Source of the DNA: Verrucomicrobiota bacterium
GTDB taxonomy: Bacteria > Verrucomicrobiota > Kiritimatiellia > RFP12 > UBA1067
Direction of reading: 5' to 3'
Assembly (NCBI GenBank): GCA_023269675.1
Contig: JAHFSX010000023.1
Span: 1 to 64,000, forward strand
DNA length: 64,000 nucleotides
Shown here: piece by piece, positions 7,526-31,780 of the stretch
How the letters are laid out: each line of letters opens with the position of its first letter
Position numbering within the stretch: the first letter of the stretch is position 1
Notes under the pieces: generated by a model
Told to the model about the DNA's origin: nothing
Seen by the model: the letters and a program-made list of their open reading frames with translations, nothing else
The model's database searches: none
Program-made: the position numbers and the translations under genes

Positions 7526-8962
7526 TTAGTAACCGAATTGCTGCCAGTAGGCGGTTTTGTAGGGGTTTTGCGCGGGAACGTTCTGCGGGTTTTCGTTCTC
7601 CAGGCAGGGGCGGGCCTCGGCCCACCAGGCGTCGTAGGCTGCGCGCAGGCGGGCGACCTCGTCGGGATACTTCGCGGCGAGGTCCTGCTTCTCCATGGGG
7701 TCGGCCGCGATGTCGTAAAGCGCGGTGTTGTTCACGAAGCGGAAGCGGGGTGTGCGGACGGCGCACTCTTTATACTTCGACGCGTCGGGGTCGGTGCCGG
7801 GCTTCCAGCGCCCGACGTGCGTGAAGAGCAGTCGGTCCTCCCACGGGGACTGCGGGTTCTGCATCAGCGGCAGCAGCGAGCGGCCGTCGAGTTTCTTTTC
7901 GGCGGGAGGTTTGGCGCCGGCGAGGGCGCAGAGCGTGGGGAAAAGGTCGATGTGCGCGGTGAGCGCGGGACAGGTCGCGCCTTCCGGCAGCACGCCCGTC
8001 CAGCGCGCGAGCAGGCCGACGCGCGTGCCTCCCTGATAGGGTGTGCCCTTGGCGCCGCGCATGCCGCCGTCGAAGAGTTTCGGCTGGCAGGTGCCGTTGT
8101 CGCCCAGGAAGATGACGAGCGTGTTTTCGGCGAGGCCCCACTCGTCCAGCTTGGCGAGCAGGCGGCCGACGTTCCAGTCGATGTTCTCCACCATGCCGCA
8201 GAAGTTCGCGGGACCCTCTTTCAGGCCCTGCTCGAAATGCCGTTTGCTCCACTCGGCCGGCGCGGCATAGGGGCCGTGCGGCGCGTTGGGCGTGAGATAA
8301 CAGAAAAAGGGCTCAGCCGTTTTGCGGCGGGCGTCGATCCACTGCAGGGCCCGGTCGAAGAAGATGTCGGTGCAGTACCCCTTGGTGCGCTCGAAGGTGC
8401 CGTTGTGGCGGATCACCGGGTCGAAGTAGGTGTTGTTTGGCGCGTCGCCGCACGAGCCGGGGTAGGTCTGGCCGATGCCGCCGCCGCCGTGGATGAAGGT
8501 CTCGTCGAAGCCGCGCCGTCCGGGCTGGTAGGGCTCCTCGTCGCCGAGGTGCCACTTGCCGAAGATGCCGGTGGCGTAGCCCGCGGACTTGAGCGCCTGG
8601 GGCAGGGTGAAGGCCTTGAGGCTCATGCGTTCGCGCTCGAAGATGGTGTGGGTGACGCCGGAGAAGAACTCGTGGCGGCCGGTCAGGAGCGCGCAGCGCG
8701 TGGGCGCGCAGGTCGGGCTGGCGTGGAACTCGGAGAGCCAGAGCGACTGCCGGCGCAGGGCGTCGAGGTTGGGCGTGCGGATGTGTGGGTGGCCGGTCCA
8801 GCCCATGTCGCCTAGTCCCTGATCGTCGGTCATGATGAAGACGATGTTGGGGCGGCGTCCGGCGAGCGGAAGGGACGCGGGCTGAGCAGCGGCGGTGGAG
8901 CGGCTGGAGGTGACCGCGGCGGCCGCGAGGGTGAATGAGCGAAGAAAATCTCGGCGATTCAT
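7526..8962 (-). CDS. Tat-exported sulfatase (formylglycine type)
   Basis: Hydrolyses sulfate esters outside the cytoplasm. 478 residues from ATG 8962; the frame extends upstream but only this start gives the Tat signal 'NRRDFLRSFTLAAAA'. The alkaline-phosphatase-fold sulfatase domain begins 'RPNIVFIMTDDQGLGDMGW', giving the Asp pair for calcium. The modification motif is Cys85-Ala-Pro-Thr-Arg89 followed by 'CALLTGRH'; the Cys becomes formylglycine, normally with a maturase that is not in this window. Other core parts seen are 'GKWHLGD', 'HGPYAAP', 'FLGDNGTC' and 'GGMRGAKGTPYQGG'. The SulfAtlas S1 subfamily and sugar substrate cannot be read directly. It is separated from the next sulfatase by duplicated repeat sequence. 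Confidence 0.93.
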   Translation of the reverse strand: MNRRDFLRSFTLAAAAVTSSRSTAAAQPASLPLAGRRPNIVFIMTDDQGLGDMGWTGHPHIRTPNLDALRRQSLWLSEFHASPTCAPTRCALLTGRHEFFSGVTHTIFERERMSLKAFTLPQALKSAGYATGIFGKWHLGDEEPYQPGRRGFDETFIHGGGGIGQTYPGSCGDAPNNTYFDPVIRHNGTFERTKGYCTDIFFDRALQWIDARRKTAEPFFCYLTPNAPHGPYAAPAEWSKRHFEQGLKEGPANFCGMVENIDWNVGRLLAKLDEWGLAENTLVIFLGDNGTCQPKLFDGGMRGAKGTPYQGGTRVGLLARWTGVLPEGATCPALTAHIDLFPTLCALAGAKPPAEKKLDGRSLLPLMQNPQSPWEDRLLFTHVGRWKPGTDPDASKYKECAVRTPRFRFVNNTALYDIAADPMEKQDLAAKYPDEVARLRAAYDAWWAEARPCLENENPQNVPAQNPYKTAYWQQFGY

Positions 8963-9173
8963 AAGTGTGTTTCTCTTTCTGCTATGCGTGCTCGGAGAGC
9001 CCGCGCCACCTTTTTCGAGCGCGGCAGACGGCCCAGGCGGTTCGCGTGTCCGGTATTTCTGGAGGGCTCGCGTCCTTGCGAACCGCGGACGGCGGGGACG
9101 CCGTCCCTCCAGATGATGTGTGAGTGCCTTACAAACTAACAACGACAAAAAGAAAGAAGCTGTTTCATGACTT

Positions 9174-9297
9174 GAACGAACCGCAGAGTGACGAATGATG
9201 AGTTTCGAATCATGAAGGAAAGAGCTTCAACTGCGAAAAAGCGGGATTCACTTCGACATTCTGCGGTTCAGTATTCGACGATCTACGGCTCAATTGG
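9174..9297 (+). repeat. 120-bp intergenic element with inverted ends (copy 2)
   Basis: Begins AACGAACCGCAGAGTGACG and includes ATGATGAGTTTCGAATCATGA, an internal near-palindrome, and CGACATTCTGCGGTTCA. Nearly identical to copy 3 and inverted relative to copy 1 at 4079-4197. Confidence 0.7.
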
Positions 9298-9535
9298 GTT
9301 GTGGGCTGGACCCACGTTAGAACAATCCTACTCTAGCGATACCGGCGCAAGCGGTTCGCGTGTCCGGTATTTCTGGAGGGCTCGCGTCCTCGCGAACCGC
9401 GGACGGCGGGGACGCCGTCCCTCCATGTGATGCTGCAGATGATGCTGCGGACGGCGTGGACGCCGTCCCTCCAGGTGATATGTGAGTGCCTTACAAACTA
9501 ACAACGACAAAAAGAAAGAAGCTGTTTCATGACTT

Positions 9536-9657
9536 GAACGAACCGCAGAGTGACGAATGATGAGTTTCGAATCATGAAGGAGGATGGTCAACGGTGAAAG
9601 AGCGGGATTCACTTCGACATTCTGCGGTTCAGTATTCGGCGATCTGCGGTTCAATCA
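9536..9657 (+). repeat. 120-bp intergenic element with inverted ends (copy 3)
   Basis: Same ends and core as copy 2, differing by a few substitutions and the GAGGATGGTCAACGG stretch. It sits immediately downstream of the second sulfatase gene. Confidence 0.7.
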
Positions 9658-9689
9658 GGTTGTGGGCTGAAAAACACGTTAGAACAATC

Positions 9690-11117
9690 CTACTCAAGCG
9701 ATACCGGAGCAAGCGGGTCGTGCATCTGCTGCTGAATCTCTGCGAGTTTGCGCTTCAATTTAGCGAGGGTCTCCTTGTGCGAGGGATCGTCGGCGAGGTT
9801 GTGCATCTCGTGCGGGTCGTGCGCGAGGTCGAAGAGCAGGAAAACATGGGCCTCCGGGTACCAGATGAGCTTCAGGTCGCCGACACGCACCATGCGCTGC
9901 AGCTTCATGTAGGCGCCGTAGATGGCGTCGTACTGTGTGGTGCGTTCGCCGCGGACGAGGGGCAGCAGGCTCTTGAAGCGCACGTGCGCGGGGACCGCGG
10001 CGCCGGCCAGCTCCAGCGCGGTGGGCATGATGTCCTGCAGGTAGACCGGCGCGTCGATGCGTTTGTCTTTGGGGAAGCCTGGCCCTGAGGCGAGCAGGGG
10101 GACCTTCATGCTGTGCTCGAACATGTTCTGCTTGCCCATGAAGCCGTGCTGCCCGACCGAGAGGCCGTTGTCGCCGGTGAGGAAGACCACGGTGTTCGCC
10201 GCCTGGCCCGATTTGTCCAGCGCGTCCAGCACGCGGCCGATCTGCTGGTCGAGGTAGGTGATCAGCGCGTAGTACTCCGAGCGGTGGAGCTGCACCGCGT
10301 GCGGCGTGCGCGGGTCGGGCGCGAGCCGTTCGTCGCGCAGCGAATGCTGACAGCCGATGGCGTCCTTATAGGGGTTGGAGGGCAGGAAATTGGGCGGCAG
10401 GGCGATCTTCTCAGGCGGGTAGAGGTCCACGAACTCCTTGGGGCTCTGGCGGGGGTCGTGCGGCGCGTTGAAGGCGGCGTAGATGAAGAAAGGTTTGTTG
10501 TCGGTGCGGGGTTGCTGGAGGAAGGCGATGGCATCGTCGGCGGTCACGGCGCTCCAGTGTTGGCCGCCCTGCCAGTGGCCGCCGCGCGACGCGTCCCACG
10601 GCTGCCACAGGTCGGGCTGGCCCTCCTTGGGGCGTTCGTAGGCGGCTTCGCAGCTGCCGGCCATGCCGGGGCGGACATGGCGCGCCTCGTCGAAGAGGTC
10701 GGCGGGCTGGATGCCGGTGATGTGCCACTTGCCGGTCATGGCGGTGCGGTAGCCGGCCTGGCGCATGAGCTGGGGCCAGAGACGCTTCTGCTCGGCTTCC
10801 TCCTTGAGGTGCTGCTCGACGGCGCAGGCCTCCCAGAGGAAGCGGCCGGTGTTGAGCATGGTGCGGCTGGCGACGCAGACCGCGCCGTGCCAGCCGCCCT
10901 GGTTGTAGCAGTTCCTGAAGACAGTGCCGGAGGTGGCGAGGCGGTCGAGGTTGGGGGTCCGGATCTCGGAATTGCCCAGCGCGCGGATCGAGTCGAAGGT
11001 CTGGTCGTCGGTGTACAGCAGCAGGATGTTGGGCTGGCCGCGGGGCTCCCCGGCGCGGGCCGTGAGGCAGGCTGCGCCGGCGAGGGTCAGGGAGCGGAGG
11101 AAGTCGCGTCGGTTCAT
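9690..11117 (-). CDS. Tat-exported sulfatase (formylglycine type, CVASR motif)
   Basis: 475 residues with Tat signal 'NRRDFLRSLTLAGAACLTARA'. The sulfatase domain starts 'QPNILLLYTDDQTFDSI'. The formylglycine motif is Cys81-Val-Ala-Ser-Arg85 followed by 'TMLNTGR', that is C-x-A-S-R and not C-x-P-x-R, so it belongs to a different S1 subfamily from its neighbour and likely has a different substrate. 'GKWHITG', 'NAPHDPRQSP' and 'LTGDNGLSVGQHGFMGKQNM' complete the active-site region. Its ATG overlaps the TGA of the DUF2851 gene by four bases (ATGA), so the two are translationally coupled. The short tail PLAPVSLE is repeated in the downstream remnant. Confidence 0.93.
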   Translation of the reverse strand: MNRRDFLRSLTLAGAACLTARAGEPRGQPNILLLYTDDQTFDSIRALGNSEIRTPNLDRLATSGTVFRNCYNQGGWHGAVCVASRTMLNTGRFLWEACAVEQHLKEEAEQKRLWPQLMRQAGYRTAMTGKWHITGIQPADLFDEARHVRPGMAGSCEAAYERPKEGQPDLWQPWDASRGGHWQGGQHWSAVTADDAIAFLQQPRTDNKPFFIYAAFNAPHDPRQSPKEFVDLYPPEKIALPPNFLPSNPYKDAIGCQHSLRDERLAPDPRTPHAVQLHRSEYYALITYLDQQIGRVLDALDKSGQAANTVVFLTGDNGLSVGQHGFMGKQNMFEHSMKVPLLASGPGFPKDKRIDAPVYLQDIMPTALELAGAAVPAHVRFKSLLPLVRGERTTQYDAIYGAYMKLQRMVRVGDLKLIWYPEAHVFLLFDLAHDPHEMHNLADDPSHKETLAKLKRKLAEIQQQMHDPLAPVSLE

Positions 11118-12556
11118 CGGTTCTCCTGAGGGGCGGCGAGGGCCGCGCAGAACGCGCAGGCGTCACAGCCGGGTTTGGTATTGAGGCAGAAGTCGAGGTG
11201 GAGCTGGAGCAGGCCCTGCTGCAGCAGGCCGCTGTCGGCGTAGAGGGCGGGATTGTGGTCGCGTCCGAACAGGTGCAGGGCGGTGAGGCGCATGGGAGCG
11301 GAGAGATCCTCGGGTGGCAGGTGGTCGAGCACGCCTTGCGGCAACGCCTCTTCCGCCGCGTAGAAGGGGATCACGACATTGGTCAGGATGGCGGCCGTGC
11401 GCGATTCGCCGAGCAGGGCGAGATCCTGCGCGGCGTCGGGCGCGGAAGAGAAGGCCAGCCGGTGGTTCCAGAAGGGCCAGCGGCAGCGCGCCTCGAAACA
11501 GTCCTGCGCCTGCGAATACCAGCGCAGGCCGGTTTCGGCGGAGAGACGGTCGAGGTCGTTCAGCACGGTGGCGAGGCCGCTGAAAAGACAGGCGGCCGAG
11601 GCCAGGCGGCGCACCGGCGCGTTTTGCGGCCGGAGGTTGTGGAGCGTCCAGGTGACGCTCTCGGGCAGGGTCTCGGCCGAGTCGCGCCACCAGAGGTCCC
11701 AGAGGGAGCGGATGAACCGCTGGCCCTCGGCGTCGGGCGCGGCCTCGGGCTGGGGCAGCAGGCGCGCGCTGCCGAGCAGGCGGGCGAGGGCGGCGTCGCG
11801 CGGCGCGCCGAGGGTCGCGGCGGGCAGGAGGCGGGCGAGGGCGCGGAAGGGGGTCTGGTTGTGCTTGTAACCCAGCGCCGCCATGACCTCCTCGTAAAAG
11901 AGCTGGGCGCGGTCAGCCGTCTGCTCAAGGCGCGCGCGCAGGCGGGCCGCCTTGGCGCGCAGGCGGTAGTGGCCGGCGGACGCGAGAACGGCGCGGGCGC
12001 GGTCGGGATCGTTCTTCAGGAGGGCTTCGCACGGGCGCGGGGTGGCGGGCAGCACCGCGTGCGGGTAGGCTTTGAGGTCGATGTCGTCGAGCGAGAGGCC
12101 GGGCTGGGCCAGCACGGGCTCGGCCAGGGAGAGCGCGCAGACGCCGGGCGGCAGGGTGCGCGGCGCCGGGCCGGGGAACCAGGTGACGTGCGCGACGACG
12201 TGGGCGTAGGCGGGGTCGGCGTGGTGGTCGTGCGCGTCCCAGTCTGACGGGTGGACGTGGAGCTCCACGTCGCCGCGCAGCTGGCGCGCGCCGGGCTGGA
12301 CGAGGAGCGTGGCGTTCAGGAAGTCGGGCCCGGCCTCGAGGTTCCACTGGCCGGGCTCGAGCACCGTGACGGTTTCGCCGCCGGGCAGCGGAAACGAGGC
12401 GGGACGGTAGCGCGCGTCGAACCAGAGGCACTGCAGGTGGCGCTCGCTCCAGTGGAAGCCGGAGCGGTAGCGCGCGGGCGATTCACGCACGGCCGGGGAA
12501 TGCGCGGCCAAGAGCCGCGCATGGTCGTCCGCCAGTTGGAAAGGAGCGTCGTTCAT
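11114..12556 (-). CDS. DUF2851 family protein
   Basis: 480 residues, with AGGAAG seven bases before ATG 12556. It matches the DUF2851 layout: an N-terminal 'FHWSERHLQCLWFD' segment, then the hallmark 'GQWNLEAGPDFLNATLLV' and 'GDVELHVHPSDWDAHDHHADPAY', a helical middle, and a cysteine-rich end 'CLNTKPGCDACAFC' that could bind a metal. The His/Asp/Glu-rich core suggests a metal-dependent hydrolase-like or nuclease-like fold, but no function is established for this family, which is common in Bacteroidota and PVC bacteria. It has no signal peptide. Four-base overlap with the sulfatase gene suggests one transcript, though a functional link is not obvious. Confidence 0.88.
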   Translation of the reverse strand: MNDAPFQLADDHARLLAAHSPAVRESPARYRSGFHWSERHLQCLWFDARYRPASFPLPGGETVTVLEPGQWNLEAGPDFLNATLLVQPGARQLRGDVELHVHPSDWDAHDHHADPAYAHVVAHVTWFPGPAPRTLPPGVCALSLAEPVLAQPGLSLDDIDLKAYPHAVLPATPRPCEALLKNDPDRARAVLASAGHYRLRAKAARLRARLEQTADRAQLFYEEVMAALGYKHNQTPFRALARLLPAATLGAPRDAALARLLGSARLLPQPEAAPDAEGQRFIRSLWDLWWRDSAETLPESVTWTLHNLRPQNAPVRRLASAACLFSGLATVLNDLDRLSAETGLRWYSQAQDCFEARCRWPFWNHRLAFSSAPDAAQDLALLGESRTAAILTNVVIPFYAAEEALPQGVLDHLPPEDLSAPMRLTALHLFGRDHNPALYADSGLLQQGLLQLHLDFCLNTKPGCDACAFCAALAAPQENR

Positions 12557-12583
12557 GCGAGCTTCCTTTTAACGCTCACCGCT

Positions 12584-12757
12584 GAACATTGAACGCTGAA
12601 CGCCGAAGTAAACGCGGGTTTCTCCCGTTCTGAGTTCGATGTTCAGCGTTCGGCGTTAAACAACTCAATTCGAACACTCAACATCGAACACTGAACATTG
12701 AACATCGAACGTTCAACATCGAACGCTGAACGTCCAACATCGAACGCCGAGCGAAAT
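12584..12757. repeat. Degenerate short tandem repeat (AACATCGAAC type)
   Basis: Many near-copies of AACATTGAAC / AACATCGAAC / AACGCTGAAC, about 9-10 bases apart, in both orientations around a central GGGTTTCTCCCG. The same motif family appears inside a gene at 29751-29789 and in decayed form at 61228-61290. No gene is seen here. Confidence 0.75.
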
Positions 12758-12760
12758 CAG

Positions 12761-13636
12761 TCAATCGCCGAGCTGCGTGCGCAGGGTGGCGAGAGCCTTT
12801 TTCCAGGCCTCCTCGACGTTCTCTTTGGGCCAGCCGCACTCGCACGAGACGCCGCCGGTGTAGCCGATGTCCGTGAGCGCCTTGAGAAAACCGCTCAGGT
12901 CCTCGCCCTTGGTGCCGGGAGCCTTGCGGCCTTCCAGCTCGGCGACGTGGCAGTGGCGGATACGGGCACCGGCCTTGCGGATGGATTCCGGGCTCTCGTT
13001 TTCCTTCATCATGTGATAGAAGTCGGCGAGCAGCTGGATGCGCGGGCTCTGGATGGCGTCCACATACTCGATGCCTTCGAGGACCGAGTTGAGCAAGTTC
13101 GTCTCGCCCTTGTTGAGAGGCTCCAGCACGATGGTGACTTTCAGGTCCTTGATGCGCTCGCCGAGCTTCCGGCAAAAATCGATGAACTGGGCTTTGCCTT
13201 GGGCCAGGTCGAAACCCTCGGGCACTTTGCGCGCGCCTCCGCTGCCGAACACGATGTGGGGGACGCCGGCCGCATCGGCGTGCCGGCAGGCCTTGACCGC
13301 ATAGTCCAGCGCGTCGTCGTGGGTCGTTTCCGGGCCTGTGAGGTGAAACTTGCCCGGGATGAAGCCGTTGCACGACCGGGTCGGAAGCACGCAGGCTTTG
13401 ATCTTTTCGGCTTCCGGCGCGAACTCGGCGTCGGGCATTTCGGGCTTCAAGGTCCCGGCGACGCCGCCTTCGATGAAGTCGTAGCCGATGGCCTTGAGCT
13501 TCTCGGCCTTGTCCGGACCGGCGCAAATGCCCAAAAGGATTTTCGGGGAGGTCTTCTTCGCGTAGGCCATGCCGGCGGCTCCGGCCACGCCGGCCGCGGC
13601 CAGCGCCTGCATAAAGGTTCTGCGTTTGAGATGCAT
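12761..13636 (-). CDS. Tat-exported sugar phosphate isomerase/epimerase-like TIM-barrel protein
   Basis: 291 residues beginning with a Tat-type signal 'LKRRTFMQALAAAG' and cut near 'AYA/KKT'. The mature part is an AP-endonuclease-2-like TIM barrel as in hydroxypyruvate or sugar isomerases: 'LLGICAGPDKAEKLKAIGYDFIEGG', 'HIVFGSGGARKVPEGFDLAQG', metal-site Glu in 'VTIVLEPLNKGETNLLNS', 'QLLADFYHMMKE' (Asp and His ligands), 'RHCHVAEL' and a final 'VSCECGWP' (Glu). All four usual metal ligands look present, so it is probably active. Export is unusual for the general family but common for paralogs in PVC bacteria beside Gfo/Idh/MocA proteins, where they are thought to act on oxidised sugars in the periplasm. 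Confidence 0.85.
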   Translation of the reverse strand: MHLKRRTFMQALAAAGVAGAAGMAYAKKTSPKILLGICAGPDKAEKLKAIGYDFIEGGVAGTLKPEMPDAEFAPEAEKIKACVLPTRSCNGFIPGKFHLTGPETTHDDALDYAVKACRHADAAGVPHIVFGSGGARKVPEGFDLAQGKAQFIDFCRKLGERIKDLKVTIVLEPLNKGETNLLNSVLEGIEYVDAIQSPRIQLLADFYHMMKENESPESIRKAGARIRHCHVAELEGRKAPGTKGEDLSGFLKALTDIGYTGGVSCECGWPKENVEEAWKKALATLRTQLGD

Positions 13637-17748: not shown

Positions 17749-18282
17749 ATGAGTGTGTTCATGGCGGTTATCTGGTTGGCTCTTTTGACGTTTGTGCCCG
17801 GCCTTGAGGCGCGCGCGTCGATCCCGCTGGCTTTTTTCAACAAGGGTTTGCGGGAGGCCCTGGGGTTGCCCGGCGGGATCGCGGTCTGTTTCGCGGCCAA
17901 TCTGGCGGTCGGCGTGGTGACCTACTGGCTGATGGGTCCGGTGGTGCAGGCGCTGCGGCGGTGGGGCTGGTTCGAGCGCGCCGTCTGGCCGCGGTTCGCG
18001 CGCACCCAGCACAAGCTGCATCCGTATGTCGAGAAGTACGGCGAGTGGGGTCTGGCGGTTTTCATCGGCGTGCCGTTGCCGGGAACGGGGGCCTACACCG
18101 GCGCGTTCGGCGCGTTCCTGCTGGGTATGGACAAACGGAAGTTCCTGATCGCGAATTTTCTGGGCGTGCTGATCGCCTGCGTGGCGGTCACGGTGATCTG
18201 CCTGCTGATTGACCAAGGGGCTGTTGCGGACGACAGCCTGATCCGCAAACTTTTTTTGAAAAGCGTGAAGATTGATGAGTGA
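17749..18282 (+). CDS. Small multi-drug export-like membrane protein (COG2426)
   Basis: 177 residues, four to five hydrophobic segments. Family marks are 'LLTFVPGLEARASIPLAF' near the N-terminus and 'YGEWGLAVFIGVPLPGTGAYTGAFGAFLLGM' in the middle, typical of the Sm_multidrug_ex family of inner-membrane proteins. Transport substrate is not known for most members; the drug-export name is historical. Its stop codon overlaps the start of the next gene by eight bases, so both are probably made from one message, though no functional link to RNA thiolation is known. Confidence 0.85.
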   Translation: MSVFMAVIWLALLTFVPGLEARASIPLAFFNKGLREALGLPGGIAVCFAANLAVGVVTYWLMGPVVQALRRWGWFERAVWPRFARTQHKLHPYVEKYGEWGLAVFIGVPLPGTGAYTGAFGAFLLGMDKRKFLIANFLGVLIACVAVTVICLLIDQGAVADDSLIRKLFLKSVKIDE

Positions 18283-19294
18283 CGCTCCCTCTCCTGTTGA
18301 ACCGGCGGCCGCTCCCAGGCAGGGACGCGGGCTGTGCCTGCTGTCGGGCGGCTTGGACAGCCAGCTCGCGATCTGCCTGCTGCGCGAGCAGGGGCTGCAT
18401 GTCGAGGCGGTGGTGTTCGCGAGCCCGTTCTTCAAGATCTCGGCGGCCCGGCAGGCGGCGGAGAACCTGAAGGTGAAGCTGCACGTCGTCACCTTCACGC
18501 ACGATATTCTGGAGCTGGTCAAGGATCCGCCGCACGGGTTCGGCGGCGCGCTCAACCCGTGCATCGACTGCCACGCCCGGATGATCAGGCGGGCCGGCGA
18601 GCTGATGACCGAAGGGGGGTTCGATTTCGTGGCGACGGGCGAGGTGCTCAACCAGCGGCCCATGTCGCAGAACCGGCGTTCGCTGGGCATCGTCGAGCAC
18701 GACGCGGCCTTGGACGGGCGGCTCCTGCGGCCGCTGAGCGCGCTGCTGCTGGACCCGACGCGGGTGGAGACCGAGGGGATCGTGGACCGCAGCCGGCTGC
18801 TGGGGCTGAGCGGCCGGTCGCGCAAGCCGCAGATGGAGCTGGCGGAGAAATACGGGATGAAGGAGTATCCCTCGCCGGCGGGCGGATGCCTGCTGACCGA
18901 GCCGGGCTTCTGCCGCAAGCTGGCGGACCTGCGTGACCACGAGGGGCTGGACAGCGAGCGGCTGGTGTGGCTGTTGCTCTTCGGTCGGCAGTTCCGGCTG
19001 CCGGGCGGGGCGAAGTGCCTGGCCGGCCGCGACGCGCGCGACAACGCCGCGCTCAAGAAGGAGCTGGGCGAGGGCGATGTGCTGCTGTACACCGTGAACG
19101 TGCCGGGGCCGACGCTGCTGATCCCGTGCGGGGCGGGCGAGGAGGACCTCGCGCTCGCGGCGGGGATCTGCGCGGCTTACGGCGACCATGGCGCGCGGAC
19201 CGAGGTGAACGTCAGGATCGTGCGCAAGGACGGGGCGGAGGAGCGCCTGGTGGCGCCGCTGCCGAAAGAGCTGTTTCTCGGCTGGATGCTGTAA
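18275..19294 (+). CDS. PP-loop thiouridylase-like ATPase with C-terminal NFACT-R-like domain (paralog 1)
   Basis: 339 residues from ATG 18275. The N-terminal adenylating domain has the PP-loop 'LLSGGLDSQLAI', a region 'NPCIDCHARM' with a CxxC pair and 'FVATGEVLNQRPMSQNRRSL', typical of ThiI/MnmA/TtuA-like tRNA thiolases, and 'YPSPAGGCLLTEPGFCRKL'. The C-terminal 100 residues ('GRQFRLPGGAKCLAGRDARDN...EGDVLLYTVNVPGPTLLIPC') look like an NFACT-R-type RNA-binding domain. Predicted role: activates a tRNA base with ATP and inserts sulfur. It lacks the extra Cys cluster of paralog 2 (27008-28003), which suggests different sulfur donors or targets. Target base unknown. Confidence 0.8.
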   Translation: MSDAPSPVEPAAAPRQGRGLCLLSGGLDSQLAICLLREQGLHVEAVVFASPFFKISAARQAAENLKVKLHVVTFTHDILELVKDPPHGFGGALNPCIDCHARMIRRAGELMTEGGFDFVATGEVLNQRPMSQNRRSLGIVEHDAALDGRLLRPLSALLLDPTRVETEGIVDRSRLLGLSGRSRKPQMELAEKYGMKEYPSPAGGCLLTEPGFCRKLADLRDHEGLDSERLVWLLLFGRQFRLPGGAKCLAGRDARDNAALKKELGEGDVLLYTVNVPGPTLLIPCGAGEEDLALAAGICAAYGDHGARTEVNVRIVRKDGAEERLVAPLPKELFLGWML

Positions 19295-19354: not shown

Positions 19355-19849
19355 TCAGGGCGCAACAACGGCAGAGCTTTTGAAGAACAGCACCAGCAGC
19401 CCGACGATCACCAGCAGGAGCAGGACGATCACGGCGACCCAGATCCTGTTGGAGCTGGACTTCTTGCTGAACTCCTTAGGCGGCTCGATGTTGCGCTTCT
19501 GCTGAATGACGATCGTCGTCCGCGGAATCGAATAGGGCTCGGGCTTGTCCGTCTGCGGGACGTCGTCGCCTTCGATCATCACCGGGATTTCGCCCATCAG
19601 GATGATGTCGTTACGGAAAAGGGACTTCTCTTTGATCGTGTCGTTGTTGACTTTGGTGCCGTTCGTCGAGCCCAGGTCGCGGATCAGGAACCCGGTGTCG
19701 CTCTTTTCGATCTCGCAATGGGTGCCGGAGACGGAACCGTCCTGAAGGACCCAGTCGTTTCCCTCTCTCCGCCCGACCCGGGTGACCGGTTGATCCAGTG
19801 CCACACGTTGTCCCTTGAGGGGACCGTCCATCACAAGCAAGCAAGCCAT
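19355..19849 (-). CDS. FHA domain protein with C-terminal membrane anchor
   Basis: 164 residues. Residues 1-90 form a forkhead-associated domain that binds phosphothreonine peptides: 'VTRVGRREGNDWVLQDGSVSGTHCEI' and 'RDLGSTNGTKVNND', including the Arg, Ser-x-x-His and Asn residues used in binding. A proline-rich linker leads to one transmembrane helix near the C-terminus ('IWVAVIVLLLLVIVGLLVLFF'), so the domain faces the cytoplasm as a tail-anchored protein. No Ser/Thr kinase is encoded in the window; its partner must lie elsewhere. Conserved FHA core makes the call firm; the pathway is unknown. Confidence 0.9.
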   Translation of the reverse strand: MACLLVMDGPLKGQRVALDQPVTRVGRREGNDWVLQDGSVSGTHCEIEKSDTGFLIRDLGSTNGTKVNNDTIKEKSLFRNDIILMGEIPVMIEGDDVPQTDKPEPYSIPRTTIVIQQKRNIEPPKEFSKKSSSNRIWVAVIVLLLLVIVGLLVLFFKSSAVVAP

Positions 19850-26675: not shown

Positions 26676-26890
26676 CCCTTTGCGAACAGGGCGAGCCCCC
26701 GTTTCATTGACCTCAACGGGGCAGGGGCGCCTCAGCACCCCGCTCGTGCGCGGTCCGGGACGTCCCGCGCTACGGCTGCCGCAGCACCGGTAGGGGCGGA
26801 CGTCTCGGACGCCCCACAAGCGTCGATAGTCTAACGGTCAATGGAACGGGGATGCGCCCCTTGCGAACAGGGCGAGCCCCGCATCCTTTA
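26676..26890. repeat. Two-copy repeat with an extragenic palindrome between
   Basis: GTGCGCCCTTTGCGAACAGG (26676 on) recurs as ATGCGCCCCTTGCGAACAGG (from about 26851), each running on into GCGAGCCCC and flanked by complementary bases, so each can fold. Between them at 26789-26815 is a minus-strand palindrome with the CCCTACC tail. Nothing else is supported between copy B and the gene at 27008. Confidence 0.6.
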
Positions 26891-27007
26891 CAGGTGAGGG
26901 TCGATTCTGTAATATAGCGCGTCAATAGACGAAGTTCAGTAACGGTCAGCCGTGACCGCATCGGCGCTCCGCGATGAAGCGGACCGGATGACGCAAAGGA
27001 TGTATTT

Positions 27008-28003
27008 ATGAAGGCCATCGGATTGCTCTCGGGCGGGTTGGATTCGACGCTCGCGGTGCGGTTGATTTCGGAAATGGGCATCGAGGTGATCGCCGTCAAG
27101 TTCACGTCGCCGTTCTGCCAGTGCGATTCGGGCGGGTGCTGCCATGCGGCGGAGGTTGCGCGCCAGATGGGGCTGGCGCTCACGACGTTCAGCAAGGGCG
27201 ACGACTACCTCGACGTGGTGCGGCACCCCAGGCACGGGCACGGGGTCGGCATGAACCCGTGCATCGACTGCCGGATCTTCATGCTCCGGAAGACGAAGGC
27301 CTACATGGAGGAGATCGGCGCCGCCTTCCTGTTCACGGGCGAGGTCCTCGGACAGCGGCCCATGAGCCAGCACCGCCACGCCATGGAAATCATCGAGCGG
27401 GAGTCCGGGCTGGAGGGGCAGATCGTGCGGCCGCTCTCGGCGCAGCACCTGGCGCCGACCGAGGCCGAGGTGAAGGGCTGGATCGACCGCGACAAGCTGC
27501 TGGGCATGAACGGTCGCAGCCGTAAACCGCAGCTCGCCCTGGCCGAGGAGTACGGGATCAAGGGCTTCGCCTGTCCGGCCGGGGGCTGCCTGCTGACGGA
27601 CCCGAGCTTCTCGGCCAAGCTGCGCGACCTGTTCGCCCACCGGGAGAAGACGGGCATGCGGGACATCGCGCTGCTCAAGATCGGCCGCCATTTCCGCTCC
27701 GGAGAGAGCAAGGTCATTTGCGCGCGCAACGGGGCCGAGAGCGACGCGCTGCGGCAGCGGGCAGGCGAAGGCGACCTCCTGTTCGAGGCGGCCGAGTGCA
27801 TGGGGCCGGTGGTGCTGCTGGAGGGCGAGGCCGAAGAGGCGGCGGTCCGGTTGGCGGCGGAGGCCGCGGCGGCCTATGCGGACGGTGACGCGCCGGAGGT
27901 CTCCGTCAAGTGCTGGTCGCGCCAGTCTGAACGCCTGCTCCGCGTGGCGCGTCCGGACCGGTCCGCTTTGCAGCCTTATTGCGTTCATTCCGCGAAAGCC
28001 TGA
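27008..28003 (+). CDS. PP-loop thiouridylase-like ATPase with C-terminal NFACT-R-like domain (paralog 2)
   Basis: 331 residues; AAGGA before ATG 27008. PP-loop 'LLSGGLDSTLAVRL' at residues 6-19, then a Cys-rich insert 'SPFCQCDSGGCCHAAEVA' absent from paralog 1, 'GMNPCIDCRIFML', 'FTGEVLGQRPMSQHRHAM' and 'FACPAGGCLLTDPSF'. The C-terminal third ('GRHFRSGESKVICARNGAES...AGEGDLLF...GPVVLLEG') matches the same NFACT-R-like RNA-binding module. Predicted to adenylate a tRNA uridine and receive sulfur. The gene directly downstream is a cysteine desulfurase, the usual sulfur source, which strengthens this. The extra cysteines may hold an Fe-S cluster or relay persulfide. Confidence 0.82.
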   Translation: MKAIGLLSGGLDSTLAVRLISEMGIEVIAVKFTSPFCQCDSGGCCHAAEVARQMGLALTTFSKGDDYLDVVRHPRHGHGVGMNPCIDCRIFMLRKTKAYMEEIGAAFLFTGEVLGQRPMSQHRHAMEIIERESGLEGQIVRPLSAQHLAPTEAEVKGWIDRDKLLGMNGRSRKPQLALAEEYGIKGFACPAGGCLLTDPSFSAKLRDLFAHREKTGMRDIALLKIGRHFRSGESKVICARNGAESDALRQRAGEGDLLFEAAECMGPVVLLEGEAEEAAVRLAAEAAAAYADGDAPEVSVKCWSRQSERLLRVARPDRSALQPYCVHSAKA

Positions 28004-28030
28004 GGCAGGCGTCGACACGAGGTGCGGCGA

Positions 28031-29170
28031 ATGAGAGCTGGTGCGGACGGTGAAAGGCGTTACCTCGACTACGCGGCCTCCGCGCCGCCGTATCCCGAGG
28101 CGCTGGACGCGCAGGCGGAAGCGGCGCGGCGCTGGTTCGGCAACCCTTCGGCCGGGCACGCGGCGGGGCGGTCGGCGGCGCTTGAACTGCGGCGTCTGAA
28201 AACGGCGTTCGCGCGCGCGCTGGATTTCCCGGACGGACGCGTGGTGCTGATGTCCGGCGCGACCGAAGCGAACAACTGGGTGATCCGCAGCGTCATGGCG
28301 CGTTTTCCCCAAGGCCGGGTTCTGGTGGCGGCGGATGTCCACGCCTCGGTGTGGCAGGCCGCCCGCCTGTTTGAGGCGCGCATGGACGTGCTCGCGCCGG
28401 ACCGGACCGGCCGCGTCACGCCGGCCGCCTTGGCGGACGCGCTGAGACCGGACACGCGGCTCTTCTGCTGTTCGCACGCGGTCAACGAGACCGGGGTGGT
28501 CCACGACGTGGCGGCGCTGTCGGCCCTCTGCGCGCGGCGCGGCGTCTTGTGCCACGCGGACGGAGCGCAGGCGGTGGGGCATGTGCCGGTGCGGCTCTCG
28601 GAGCTGTGCTGCGAGTTCTACGTGTTCGCGGCTCACAAGTTCGGGGGGCCGCGCGGGTGCGGCGGCGTCTGCCTGAGGTGGGCCGGCGGAGCGGGCTGGC
28701 TGGCGGGCGGGGAGCAGGAGGACGGTCTGCGCGCGGGCACCGAGAATCTGCCGGGACTGGCGGGAGCGGCGGTCGCGCTCGGCCGGTCGTTGGCCACGCT
28801 GCCGCGGGAAGCGGAGCGCCTGCGTGCGCTGGCCTGCCGCCTCGCGGCGGCCGCGCGCGGCGCGGATGCGGCGTGCCGCTTGAACGGCGATCCGGCGGCG
28901 GGGCTGCCGGGACTGGTGTCGCTCTCGTTCGCGGGACTCGACGGCCACGCGCTGGCGGCGGATCTCGACCACCAGGGCTTTGAGGTGGGCACGGGCTCGG
29001 CCTGTGCCGGGTCGCGGCCCGCGCCGTCGCGGGCGCTGCTGGCGGCGGGGCTCTCGCCCGAGGAGGCGCTGGGCACCGTGCGCGTGTCCATGGGGCGGCT
29101 GACGGGCGAAATCGACGTTGATGCGGTGATTGCGGCGCTGACGGCGACGGTGCGCCGCCACAGGGGATGA
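28031..29170 (+). CDS. Cysteine desulfurase-like aminotransferase class V (NifS/IscS type)
   Basis: 379 residues from ATG 28031 (GAGGTG upstream; an in-frame GTG at 28022 is less likely). PLP enzyme that takes sulfur from cysteine as a persulfide. Seen: 'RYLDYAASAPPYPEAL', 'GNPSAGHAAGRSA', 'MSGATEANNWVI', 'CHADGAQAVGHVPV', PLP-lysine Lys203 in 'VFAAHKFGGPRGCGG', 'LRAGTENLPGLAGAAVA' and the sulfur-carrying Cys325 in 'TGSACAGSRPAPS'. Rather short loop around Cys suggests the NifS/IscS class. It starts 27 bases after the PP-loop gene, so sulfur handoff to that enzyme is the natural inference. Confidence 0.9.
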   Translation: MRAGADGERRYLDYAASAPPYPEALDAQAEAARRWFGNPSAGHAAGRSAALELRRLKTAFARALDFPDGRVVLMSGATEANNWVIRSVMARFPQGRVLVAADVHASVWQAARLFEARMDVLAPDRTGRVTPAALADALRPDTRLFCCSHAVNETGVVHDVAALSALCARRGVLCHADGAQAVGHVPVRLSELCCEFYVFAAHKFGGPRGCGGVCLRWAGGAGWLAGGEQEDGLRAGTENLPGLAGAAVALGRSLATLPREAERLRALACRLAAAARGADAACRLNGDPAAGLPGLVSLSFAGLDGHALAADLDHQGFEVGTGSACAGSRPAPSRALLAAGLSPEEALGTVRVSMGRLTGEIDVDAVIAALTATVRRHRG

Positions 29171-29252
29171 TCAGACCGGGCGGACGCTGCGGCCTGTCTT
29201 TGCGGACGGCTCGTGGCGCCGTCCCTGCCAAAGGATACGGGCGAGGTTCGAT

Positions 29253-30386
29253 ATGGCGGACAACGACGCGGTTTTTAAGGCGCATGCGGTGCAGGTACAC
29301 GGACCCTCGGCGGACGAGGCGCGCGAAGCTTTTCTGCGGTTGCCGCGCCAGGGCTGCCTGGCGGCGGTGTGCCCGTGGGAAAGCCGTCTGGAGCTGCTGG
29401 CCGCGCTCGAAGAGTCGGGCGCGTTCGCGATCCTCTTCTCGGTGACCGACGGGTTCACGGCGGTGCGCATCGAAGCGCTCAAAGGCAAGGCCGGGCCGTG
29501 CTATGACACGGGGCGCAGCGCGGTCTACCGCGGCGGTGCGGCGGCGCTGGATGATGACCGCCATCTGATCGTCGGCAAGCTCCGCGTGTGCGAGAAGACC
29601 GGCGGGCTCTACACGCTGTGGCCGTATCGCGACGTGCTGACCGTGACGGAAGCCGACCCGGCCTTGCGGGCGCGGCTGGACAGCGACCCGGCGCCGTTCG
29701 ACTGCAACACCTTGGATGCGGACTGCCGGCGGTTGGCGGCGATGCTGGAGAACGTTCAACGCCCAACGCCCAACGTTCAACTTTCAGCGTACGTCTATCC
29801 GGGGCCTTTCCGCGCGCTGGTGCTGCAGGACGGGCGCGTGGTGCGGCGCGGCGCGGCGGTTCTCGTGGAGGAGTGCGTGGCCGCGCAGAACGGAATGGTG
29901 CGGTTGCCGCTCGCCCGGGCGCACGAGGCGCGCCCGTGCGAGACCTATGCGGCGGCCTGCCGCGAGCGGGGTGCGGCGTTCATCTTGGAGCCGCTCGGCA
30001 GCGGAGGCGCGCGCGTGGCGGCGCTTGCCGATACGGCAGCCGGACTGGAAGGTCCGGCGCTGGACGCTTTGCGTGCGGCGCCCCGCGATTTCAAACAGCG
30101 GCTGCTGCAGCTCATCGAGGCGCGCGAGCCGTATCTGGTGCTGACGGGCAGCGATCCGGGGGCGGCGGGCGGGTGCTGTCCGAGCACGCAGGTGGGCGCG
30201 GTCAACCGGCTGGTCAGGGCCGGGGCGCTGCAGGCGTACGCGCCGCCCGCGCCGCCTGAGTCCTGCACGGCGACGTTCTACGCTTTTCCCTCCGAGATCT
30301 GCGCCGGGAAGAAGCACGGTCCGGAATTCCGCCTGTGCGAGCGGGTCCGCGCGCAGGCCGCGGCGGCGCTGCGCGAGGGCTGTTAG
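29253..30386 (+). CDS. Protein of unknown function in the thiolase-desulfurase operon, with an in-frame repeat insert
   Basis: 377 residues; GAGG seven bases before ATG 29253, 82 bases after the desulfurase. No signal peptide or membrane span. Cys appears in conserved-looking contexts near the end: 'GAAGGCCPSTQVGAVNRLV', 'PPESCTATFYAFPSEICAGKKHGPEF' and 'RLCERVRAQAAAALREGC'. The middle has several beta-strand/helix repeats ('EECVAAQNGMVRLPLARAHEARPCETYAAACRERGAAFILEP' region). I do not recognise the family. Residues 167-179 (NVQRPTPNVQLSA) come from a short repeat otherwise found between genes. The Cys-rich end and operon suggest a role in sulfur handling, by inference only. Confidence 0.6.
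   Translation: MADNDAVFKAHAVQVHGPSADEAREAFLRLPRQGCLAAVCPWESRLELLAALEESGAFAILFSVTDGFTAVRIEALKGKAGPCYDTGRSAVYRGGAAALDDDRHLIVGKLRVCEKTGGLYTLWPYRDVLTVTEADPALRARLDSDPAPFDCNTLDADCRRLAAMLENVQRPTPNVQLSAYVYPGPFRALVLQDGRVVRRGAAVLVEECVAAQNGMVRLPLARAHEARPCETYAAACRERGAAFILEPLGSGGARVAALADTAAGLEGPALDALRAAPRDFKQRLLQLIEAREPYLVLTGSDPGAAGGCCPSTQVGAVNRLVRAGALQAYAPPAPPESCTATFYAFPSEICAGKKHGPEFRLCERVRAQAAAALREGC
29751..29789 (+). repeat. Intergenic-type repeat inside a coding region
   Basis: AACGTTCAACGCCCAACGCC and the following AACGTTCAACTTTCAG match the AACATCGAACGTTCAAC family of the spacer at 12584-12757. Its 39 bases are 13 codons, so the frame is kept. Confidence 0.65.
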
Positions 30387-30448: not shown

Positions 30449-30477
30449 GGCCCGCAGGGAACTGCGGGCCTTTTTTT
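30449..30477 (+). terminator. Strong Rho-independent terminator
   Basis: GGCCCGCAG-ggaa-CTGCGGGCC followed by seven T, about 60 bases after the stop of the unknown gene; it would end the 27-30.4 kb operon. Confidence 0.92.
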
Positions 30478-30709: not shown

Positions 30710-31780
30710 ATGAACACCATACGCAAAACAGTCAGAACCGCAGGAATCCTCGCCTTGGCCGCGACAGGTCTTCTGGCGGTAGAAGTCACTGAACTTCTGA
30801 ACGTCTCGTATGACCCGACCCGCGAACTTTACAAGGATTACAATCAGGCCTTCGGCCAATGGTACGAGAAGGAGCACGGGGGCAAGAAGATCACGGTCAA
30901 GCAGTCGCACGGCGGATCGGGCAAGCAGGCCCGCGCCGTGATCGACGGGCTGGAGGCGGACGTGCTGACCCTGGCCCTGGCCTACGACATCGACGAGGTG
31001 GCCGCCAAGGCGGGGCTGCTGGGGGCGGACTGGCAGGCGAAGCTGCCGCACAACAGCGCCCCGTACACGTCGACGATCGTCTTCCTGGTCCGCAAGGGGA
31101 ATCCCAAGCAGATCAGGAACTGGGACGATCTGGTCAAACCGGGCGTCGCGGTGATCACCCCCAACCCCAAGACCTCGGGGGGCGCGCGCTGGAACCATCT
31201 GGCGGCCTGGGGCTATGTCCTGGACCGTGAGCTGGGCGGCGACCTCAGCAAGCTGAGCAAGCCCGAGTTCGCGCCGCAGGCCGCGGCCGCGCAGGCCAAG
31301 GCGCGGACCTTTATCGCCGACCTCTACAAACACGTGCCGGTGCTCGACTCCGGGGCGCGCGGGTCGACCACGACCTTTGTGCAGCGCGGCATCGGCGACG
31401 TGCTGCTGGCCTGGGAGAACGAGGCGTTTCTCGCGGTCAACGAGTTGGGCAAGGACAAATTCGACATCGTGGTGCCGCCCATCAGCATCCTGGCCGAGCC
31501 GGCCGTGGCGGTGGTGGACAAGGTGGCGGACAGGCGCGGGTCGCGCGCGCTGGCCGAGGCCTACCTCACGCACCTCTACAGCGCGGAAGGGCAGCGGATC
31601 GCGGCCCGGCACTACTACCGTCCGCGCACGCCGGAGCTGGCCGATCCAGCCGATATCGCCCGCTTCCCGGCGGTCAAGCTGATCACCATCGACGGTGTTT
31701 TCGGCGGCTGGCAGAAGGCGCAGAAGGAGCACTTCGCCGACGGCGGCGTCTTTGACCAGATCTACCTGCCGGTCAAGTGA
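30710..31780 (+). CDS. Periplasmic sulfate-binding protein (Sbp/CysP type)
   Basis: 356 residues with AAAAGGAG before the ATG. Signal peptide of about 23 residues. The mature protein follows the sulfate/thiosulfate receptor family: '[20 protein letters not shown]', '[27 protein letters not shown]', '[21 protein letters not shown]', '[21 protein letters not shown]', '[22 protein letters not shown]' and 'YRPRTPE'. These are the segments that bind the oxyanion through backbone NH and Ser/Thr groups. No CysT/CysW/CysA genes follow; the next gene is a porin, so the ABC parts must be elsewhere. Likely role: capture of sulfate, perhaps released by the sulfatases in this region. Confidence 0.93.

Follow-up and report, generated by a model that had tools for sequence, protein, structure and literature searches.

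Operons that pair a cysteine desulfurase with a PP-loop sulfurtransferase are of a known kind, with trmU-iscS as one example (PMC8300815). Among PP-loop sulfurtransferases, LarE of Thermotoga maritima (LarETm) holds a [4Fe-4S] cluster through the three cysteines of its CXXC-C pattern and is stimulated by L-cysteine plus IscS (PMC9283937), and NcsA has a [4Fe-4S] cluster with three cysteine ligands (PMC10067955). Here we analyze a 64,000-nucleotide stretch of a Verrucomicrobiota bacterium (the window: assembly GCA_023269675.1, contig JAHFSX010000023.1, positions 1 to 64,000), in which a PP-loop protein with an NFACT-R_2 tail (T2), a cysteine desulfurase-like enzyme (CD) and a third protein, U, are encoded in tandem at 27008-30386; a second PP-loop protein of the same plan (T1) lies apart from them. 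We tentatively read this locus, with a probability of roughly 0.45, as a sulfur-mobilization operon of two units, CD-U and T2. U is its new element. The open-licence literature, to which our search was confined, yielded no description of the CD-U and T2-type gene neighborhoods and no assigned substrate for PP-loop/NFACT-R proteins.

The desulfurase CD and its partner U

CD (28022..29170, forward strand; 382 amino acids from a GTG start) is a desulfurase-like enzyme dependent on pyridoxal phosphate (PLP), which scores 171 bits against the Pfam family Aminotran_5. Its Lys206 and Cys328, by the family motif the PLP lysine and the catalytic cysteine, are invariant in all seven aligned proteins. 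With this fold family, PLP lysine and catalytic cysteine, CD has what is expected of a desulfurase and is predicted to be one. The best NCBIfam models are NifS and IscS, both scoring below their equivalog cut-offs (234.5 versus 530.75 and 166.4 versus 643.2 bits). In a tree computed without L131, a third row from the same genome that gave no match at the threshold, the seven desulfurases associated with U form a single branch (100/100), apart from both other desulfurases of the genome and from that of G285.

The conserved pair is CD and U, and U is tied to CD, not to T2. CD lies directly upstream of U in all six readable loci (the window, L023, L024, L026, L027 and L073); in L022, L025 and L028, and at the far end of L024, a contig end interrupts the locus. 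The two genes mostly overlap or are separated by at most 4 bases, the gap being 82 bases in the window and 49 in L023. T2 is found in three of the six genomes with full-length U; since the CD-U adjacency holds throughout, U is to be regarded as the partner of CD. A preliminary description of this DNA, made from its letters alone, had suggested that U may be the missing partner of T2 and proposed co-occurrence of the three genes as a check; the comparison does not support that assignment, the order T2-CD-U occurring in this window only.

U (29253..30386, forward strand; 377 amino acids) is rare, with matches in ten of 387 genomes of the phylum. Four of these (G313, G099, G172 and G330) match only a part of U resembling ArsM, three of them within reading frames for ArsM-like proteins, and in G177 the match is confined to the C-terminal domain. 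Searching 345 genomes of the class with a profile brought in G402 and a weak match in G590; U also occurs in the planctomycetotal locus L023 and on a contig of a sister genus (L022), and none was found on plasmids. The gene could not be placed in the preliminary description, and U indeed matches no Pfam family at E<=1. A direct phmmer search of PDB sequences found nothing, and a profile search of them gave only chance matches to gas-vesicle proteins.

Domains of U and its longer relatives

Residues 46-153 of U align with the C-terminal region of long ArsM proteins (hhalign, probability 98.2, E 3.8e-14), the homology beginning at ArsM residue 234 and pairing C83, C113 and C151 of U with cysteines of ArsM. 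In keeping with this, the best Foldseek match in the PDB for an AlphaFold2 model of U (predicted local distance difference test score, pLDDT, 81.7) is ArsM 4fs8 (E 4.6e-4). No match to an S-adenosylmethionine (SAM) domain is seen in U, and its sole, weak hit among ArsM models (NF038099, E 0.0098) spans the C-terminal part only. C174 and C224 of CmArsM map to residues 174 and 226 of the ArsM encoded at L030, ahead of the part matched by U; together with C72 we take them to be the arsenic-binding cysteines, all three lying outside the U-homologous part. We therefore rejected an arsenite methyltransferase role for U, which has no SAM domain and whose match leaves out the equivalents of CmArsM C174 and C224. 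The L030 locus (7867-13264) itself encodes an ArsM with a cysteine-bearing C-terminus of the U type, a few genes before two further open reading frames that we presume to be CofC-like and radical-SAM-like, as in arsenosugar clusters.

The C-terminal domain of U (approximately residues 266-377), here termed GCCP, displays a GCC motif (C308, C309) and one further cysteine (C338), invariant in all ten aligned rows. Modelled alone it reaches a pLDDT of 90.7, and no Foldseek match has an E-value under 0.1. At the other end, residues 9-78 were considered as a TusA-like carrier on account of matches to TsuB, SirA and TusA (Z 4.8, 4.6 and 3.5, respectively), but halves of methyltransferases score Z 2.8-4.2, the ArsM homology covers part of the region, and the CPxP motif of such carriers is not seen; this candidate was set aside. 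U is under constraint, with a ratio of nonsynonymous to synonymous substitution rates (dN/dS) of about 0.32 as against 0.17 for T1, indicating that purifying selection on it persists.

In six relatives, U is extended by a hydrophobic stretch and, beyond it, an ArsF-like thioredoxin domain, for which the three proteins tested gave 50.6, 57.0 and 65.2 bits against a cut-off of 60. The gene after such a long U codes for an ArsG-like protein wherever it is visible (45-159 bits, against a family cut-off of 200). The U of the sister lineage (sister genome G206; sister-genus locus L022:3-2015) reads on in frame into an ArsG-like membrane domain and has no ArsF part. Another variant is seen at L029, where CD precedes a protein that lacks the ArsM-like part and has GCCP and ArsF-like parts. 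The DNA similarity between the window and its sister stops 24 bases past the U stop codon of the window; tblastn with two ArsG-like queries found no ArsG-like protein in the window, and a distant ArsG-like gene lies elsewhere in the genome (contig C72, 53.5 bits). Hence, the U of the window looks like a cut-down half of an uncharacterized membrane redox protein, and its ArsM C-terminus, along with the ArsF/ArsG context in relatives, points to thiol-redox or metalloid chemistry.

These same features raise a serious rival to our reading, though one that we consider doubtful. CD-U, with ArsF/ArsG where present, could be a system for a metalloid, arsenic or perhaps selenium, which U would bind through its ArsM-derived and GCCP cysteines, CD would thiolate and ArsF/ArsG would reduce or export, leaving T2 as a bystander. 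What makes it serious is the homology of U residues 46-153 to the ArsM C-terminal region, with three cysteines in common, together with the MIP channel and PhaQ/PadR-like regulator encoded before CD-U in L073 (similar open reading frames occur in L024); the ArsF/ArsG-like parts of the relatives would also fit, and GCC plus one more cysteine could form a three-thiolate site. However, U is without the SAM domain and without the counterparts of ArsM C72, C174 and C224, presumed to bind arsenic. The rival is further weakened because ArsM is nearly missing from these genomes, the NF040538-type enzyme being absent or marginal in six of the seven with U or the GCCP domain. The ArsG-like proteins score well under their family cut-off, and among the matches listed no CD or U lies within about 1.5 kb at any of 30 canonical ArsG loci.

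A different view of the truncation is that the U of the window is a decaying remnant of a membrane protein and the T2-CD-U order an accident. It would account for the in-frame continuation in G206, for the break in similarity 24 bases past the stop codon and for a dN/dS higher than that of T1. We nevertheless regard it as quite improbable, as this ratio is well under 1, every conserved cysteine is retained, and a terminator-like site (see below) stands directly after the shortened gene.

The PP-loop proteins T1 and T2

T2 (27008..28003, forward strand; 331 amino acids) and T1 (18275..19294, forward strand; 339 amino acids from an ATG) share a two-domain plan, with both domains above their Pfam cut-offs: NFACT-R_2 at 54.5 bits in T2 and 57.5 in T1 (cut-off 26.9), and the ThiI PP-loop at 32.2 and 37 bits (cut-off 20.5). 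Both fail the equivalog models of MnmA and ThiI (24-34 bits versus 284 and 264.5, respectively). The PP-loop of T2 reads SGGLDS, S8-G-G-L-D-S13 being invariant across the alignment, and the tail matches the C-terminal region of RqcH (profile, 2.1e-5). The motif FCQCDSGGCC is present in T2 and absent from T1. The preliminary description thus had the domain plan of T2, the paralog lacking this motif and all open reading frames right; its 27-base gap between T2 and CD fits an ATG start for CD at 28031. The name "thiolase" that it used is a slip for a thiouridylase-like PP-loop sulfurtransferase.

A CXXC and a distant cysteine are invariant in 41 of 41 T1- and T2-type proteins (C85/C88/C194 in T2; C96/C99/C205 in T1), and with them T2 has the sequence hallmark of [4Fe-4S]-dependent PP-loop sulfurtransferases. 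In a profile alignment the CXXC of T2 pairs with that of the MnmA chain 9hln, while E. coli MnmA (2der) has a single cysteine there. Because LarETm and NcsA hold their [4Fe-4S] clusters with three such cysteines, T2 likely binds one as well. Four extra cysteines (C37, C39, C44 and C189), which T1 does not have, are kept in ten of the 11 T2-type proteins. The exception, from L095, has lost all four together, which suggests that they form one shared site. Its genome, G247, carries two T2-type proteins, that one (L095:6696-7730) and another with the cysteines kept (L087:2823-3830).

T1 and T2 belong to old, separate clades. A tree of 41 proteins divides them into 30 of the T1 type and 11 of the T2 type with 100/100 support, and recent duplication of T1 is thereby rejected as the origin of T2. 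The T2-type label was assigned from best matches to T2 before the tree and then confirmed by it; as the tree took only part of the 101 matching genomes, its T2-type counts for the phylum are minimums, and the single 44% match in G402 was left outside it. NFACT-R_2 occurs in 28 of 31 close genomes, with two copies solely in that of the window. The closest relative of T2 is in G321 (65%, with the FCQCDSGGCC motif in common), and others are in G285 and G247 (two each), G177, G365, G294, G148 and G142. Two T2-like proteins of Fusobacteriota (NZ_CP077186.1 and NZ_AP027060.1; L132 and L133) bear the names "MnmA/TRMU family protein" and "7-cyano-7-deazaguanine synthase", which look unreliable. PP-loop matches in G044:C40, G026:C9, G209:C68, G383:C8 and G353:C18 span one in-frame TGA or TAG and are perhaps alignments overrunning a stop.

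The two clades keep different gene-neighborhoods. Sulfur-assimilation proteins are encoded within 1.5 kb at seven of 11 T2-type loci and none of 30 T1 loci, with the bias that the query proteins were drawn from three of the former (L086, L090 and L091); excluding these, four of eight are still matched (one through the CD of the window, one through Rrf2 only), again versus 0/30. In this sample the sequence of L089 falls short on one side, many T1 loci are missing part of one flank, and "CysD" matches in part duplicate those of CysH, the two being one family. The fullest context is at L091, in the order CysK, LarE, MnmA, T2-type, CysH, CysD, CysN, OAH sulfhydrylase. At L086 (G285) the T2-type gene is followed by a NifS-like desulfurase of a lineage different from CD and by ThiF, with transsulfuration genes nearby, and L088, L090 and L092 combine Rrf2 with CysH, CysK or CysD/N; L087, L089, L094 and L095 have no sulfur-assimilation neighbors within 1.5 kb. 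Conversely, an FHA protein like the window neighbor of T1 lies within that distance at 16 of 30 T1 loci and at none of the 11 T2 loci. In the window, the FHA-domain protein (19358-19849, reverse strand) adjoins T1, a conserved neighbor without explanation.

Since T2-type genes adjoin those for sulfate and cysteine assimilation, T2 may serve sulfur metabolism, not a second RNA. The preliminary description had suggested two RNA targets or two sulfur routes; in its RNA version, T2, CD and U would form one RNA-thiolation complex for a target distinct from that of T1. Such a complex would suit the PP-loop/NFACT-R_2 fusion, the desulfurase next door, the MnmA gene beside the T2-type gene in L091 and the precedent of trmU-iscS, an operon proposed in M. 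tuberculosis (PMC8300815). Against it stand the co-occurrence of U with CD rather than T2 and the assimilatory neighborhoods, and we hold it to be quite improbable. What remains of the earlier proposal is a sulfur-transfer operon as such, upheld by the PP-loop and CXXC...C of T2, the catalytic residues of CD and the recurrence of a T2-type gene beside a desulfurase in G285; U as the partner of T2 is what finds no support.

A model for the locus

Taken together, the evidence supports sulfur transfer as the theme of the locus. In the two-unit reading, the first unit, CD-U, combines a separate desulfurase lineage with a multi-cysteine acceptor: CD would take sulfur off cysteine, carry it as a Cys328 persulfide and hand it to cysteine sites of U. 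In the relatives, U would be membrane-anchored and its ArsF-like thioredoxin domain fed electrons by the ArsG-like (CcdA-type) protein, while in the genome of the window only the presumably cytosolic part of U remains. The second unit, T2, would be a [4Fe-4S]-type ATP-dependent sulfurtransferase, whose PP-loop activates the substrate and whose CXXC...C holds the cluster. We picture it as a separate enzyme linked to sulfate and cysteine assimilation that joined CD-U in this genome, where the adjacent desulfurase could load it.

A single T2-CD-U transcript is plausible because a promoter-like site precedes T2 (26887..26915, forward strand; one found versus 0.2 expected) and a terminator-like hairpin followed by T7 lies after U (30449..30470, forward strand; four found versus 2.6 expected), both being consensus matches that carry no evidence of function. 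The next gene after the terminator-like site encodes a sulfate/thiosulfate ABC transporter substrate-binding protein (30710..31780, forward strand; NF008022, 496 bits, cut-off 288).

Several points weigh against the two-unit reading. Half of the U genomes lack T2, which adjoins CD-U only in the window, where U ends before the ArsF/ArsG parts typical of its relatives. The four extra cysteines of T2 could bind another metal. The GCCP domain has weak winged-helix matches, to Orc1 (Z 6.1, rmsd, root-mean-square deviation, 3.5 over 85 residues), CodY (Z 6.0, rmsd 4.0 over 84) and CadC (Z 5.1, rmsd 2.9 over 73).

A bolder version, which we deem unlikely, sees CD-U-ArsF-ArsG as an undescribed transmembrane sulfur/redox relay. 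A dedicated desulfurase would charge a membrane-anchored acceptor, made of the ArsM C-terminus and GCCP, with persulfide or else add sulfur to a metalloid bound there, with electrons from the CcdA-type partner; here, the cytosolic half would have been freed and wired to a PP-loop sulfurtransferase with two metal sites. Whatever its function, the cassette joins a desulfurase, a transmembrane thiol-redox pair and an ArsM-derived domain in a combination that appears uncharacterized, and its study could bring to light a new acceptor of sulfur or a pathway linking sulfur and metalloids. The split between the FHA-linked T1 clade and the sulfate-assimilation-linked T2 clade with its four extra cysteines is in turn testable as one between cysteine metabolism and RNA.

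Comparison with described systems

CD shares with the NifS/IscS-type desulfurases its fold family, PLP lysine and a catalytic cysteine in a GSAC loop, but stands on its own branch, far under their equivalog cut-offs, and is paired with U. U resembles the long bacterial ArsM in residues 46-153, which match the C-terminal region of that enzyme with three cysteines in common; unlike ArsM, it has no SAM domain, and the matched part is without the cysteines that we take to bind arsenic in CmArsM. The relatives of U approach ArsF/ArsG (NF040494/NF040495) in having an ArsF-like domain and an ArsG-like neighbor, whereas the window locus is missing both parts and the ArsG-like proteins of the relatives stay under the family cut-off. 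T2 departs from TtuA/NcsA, cluster-type MnmA and LarE of Thermotoga maritima in its NFACT-R_2 tail, which replaces their Zn-finger or other domains, and, like the T2-type proteins generally, in its four additional cysteines; with these [4Fe-4S] PP-loop sulfurtransferases it shares the SGGxDS PP-loop, the CXXC and the distant third cysteine on which its predicted cluster would be held.

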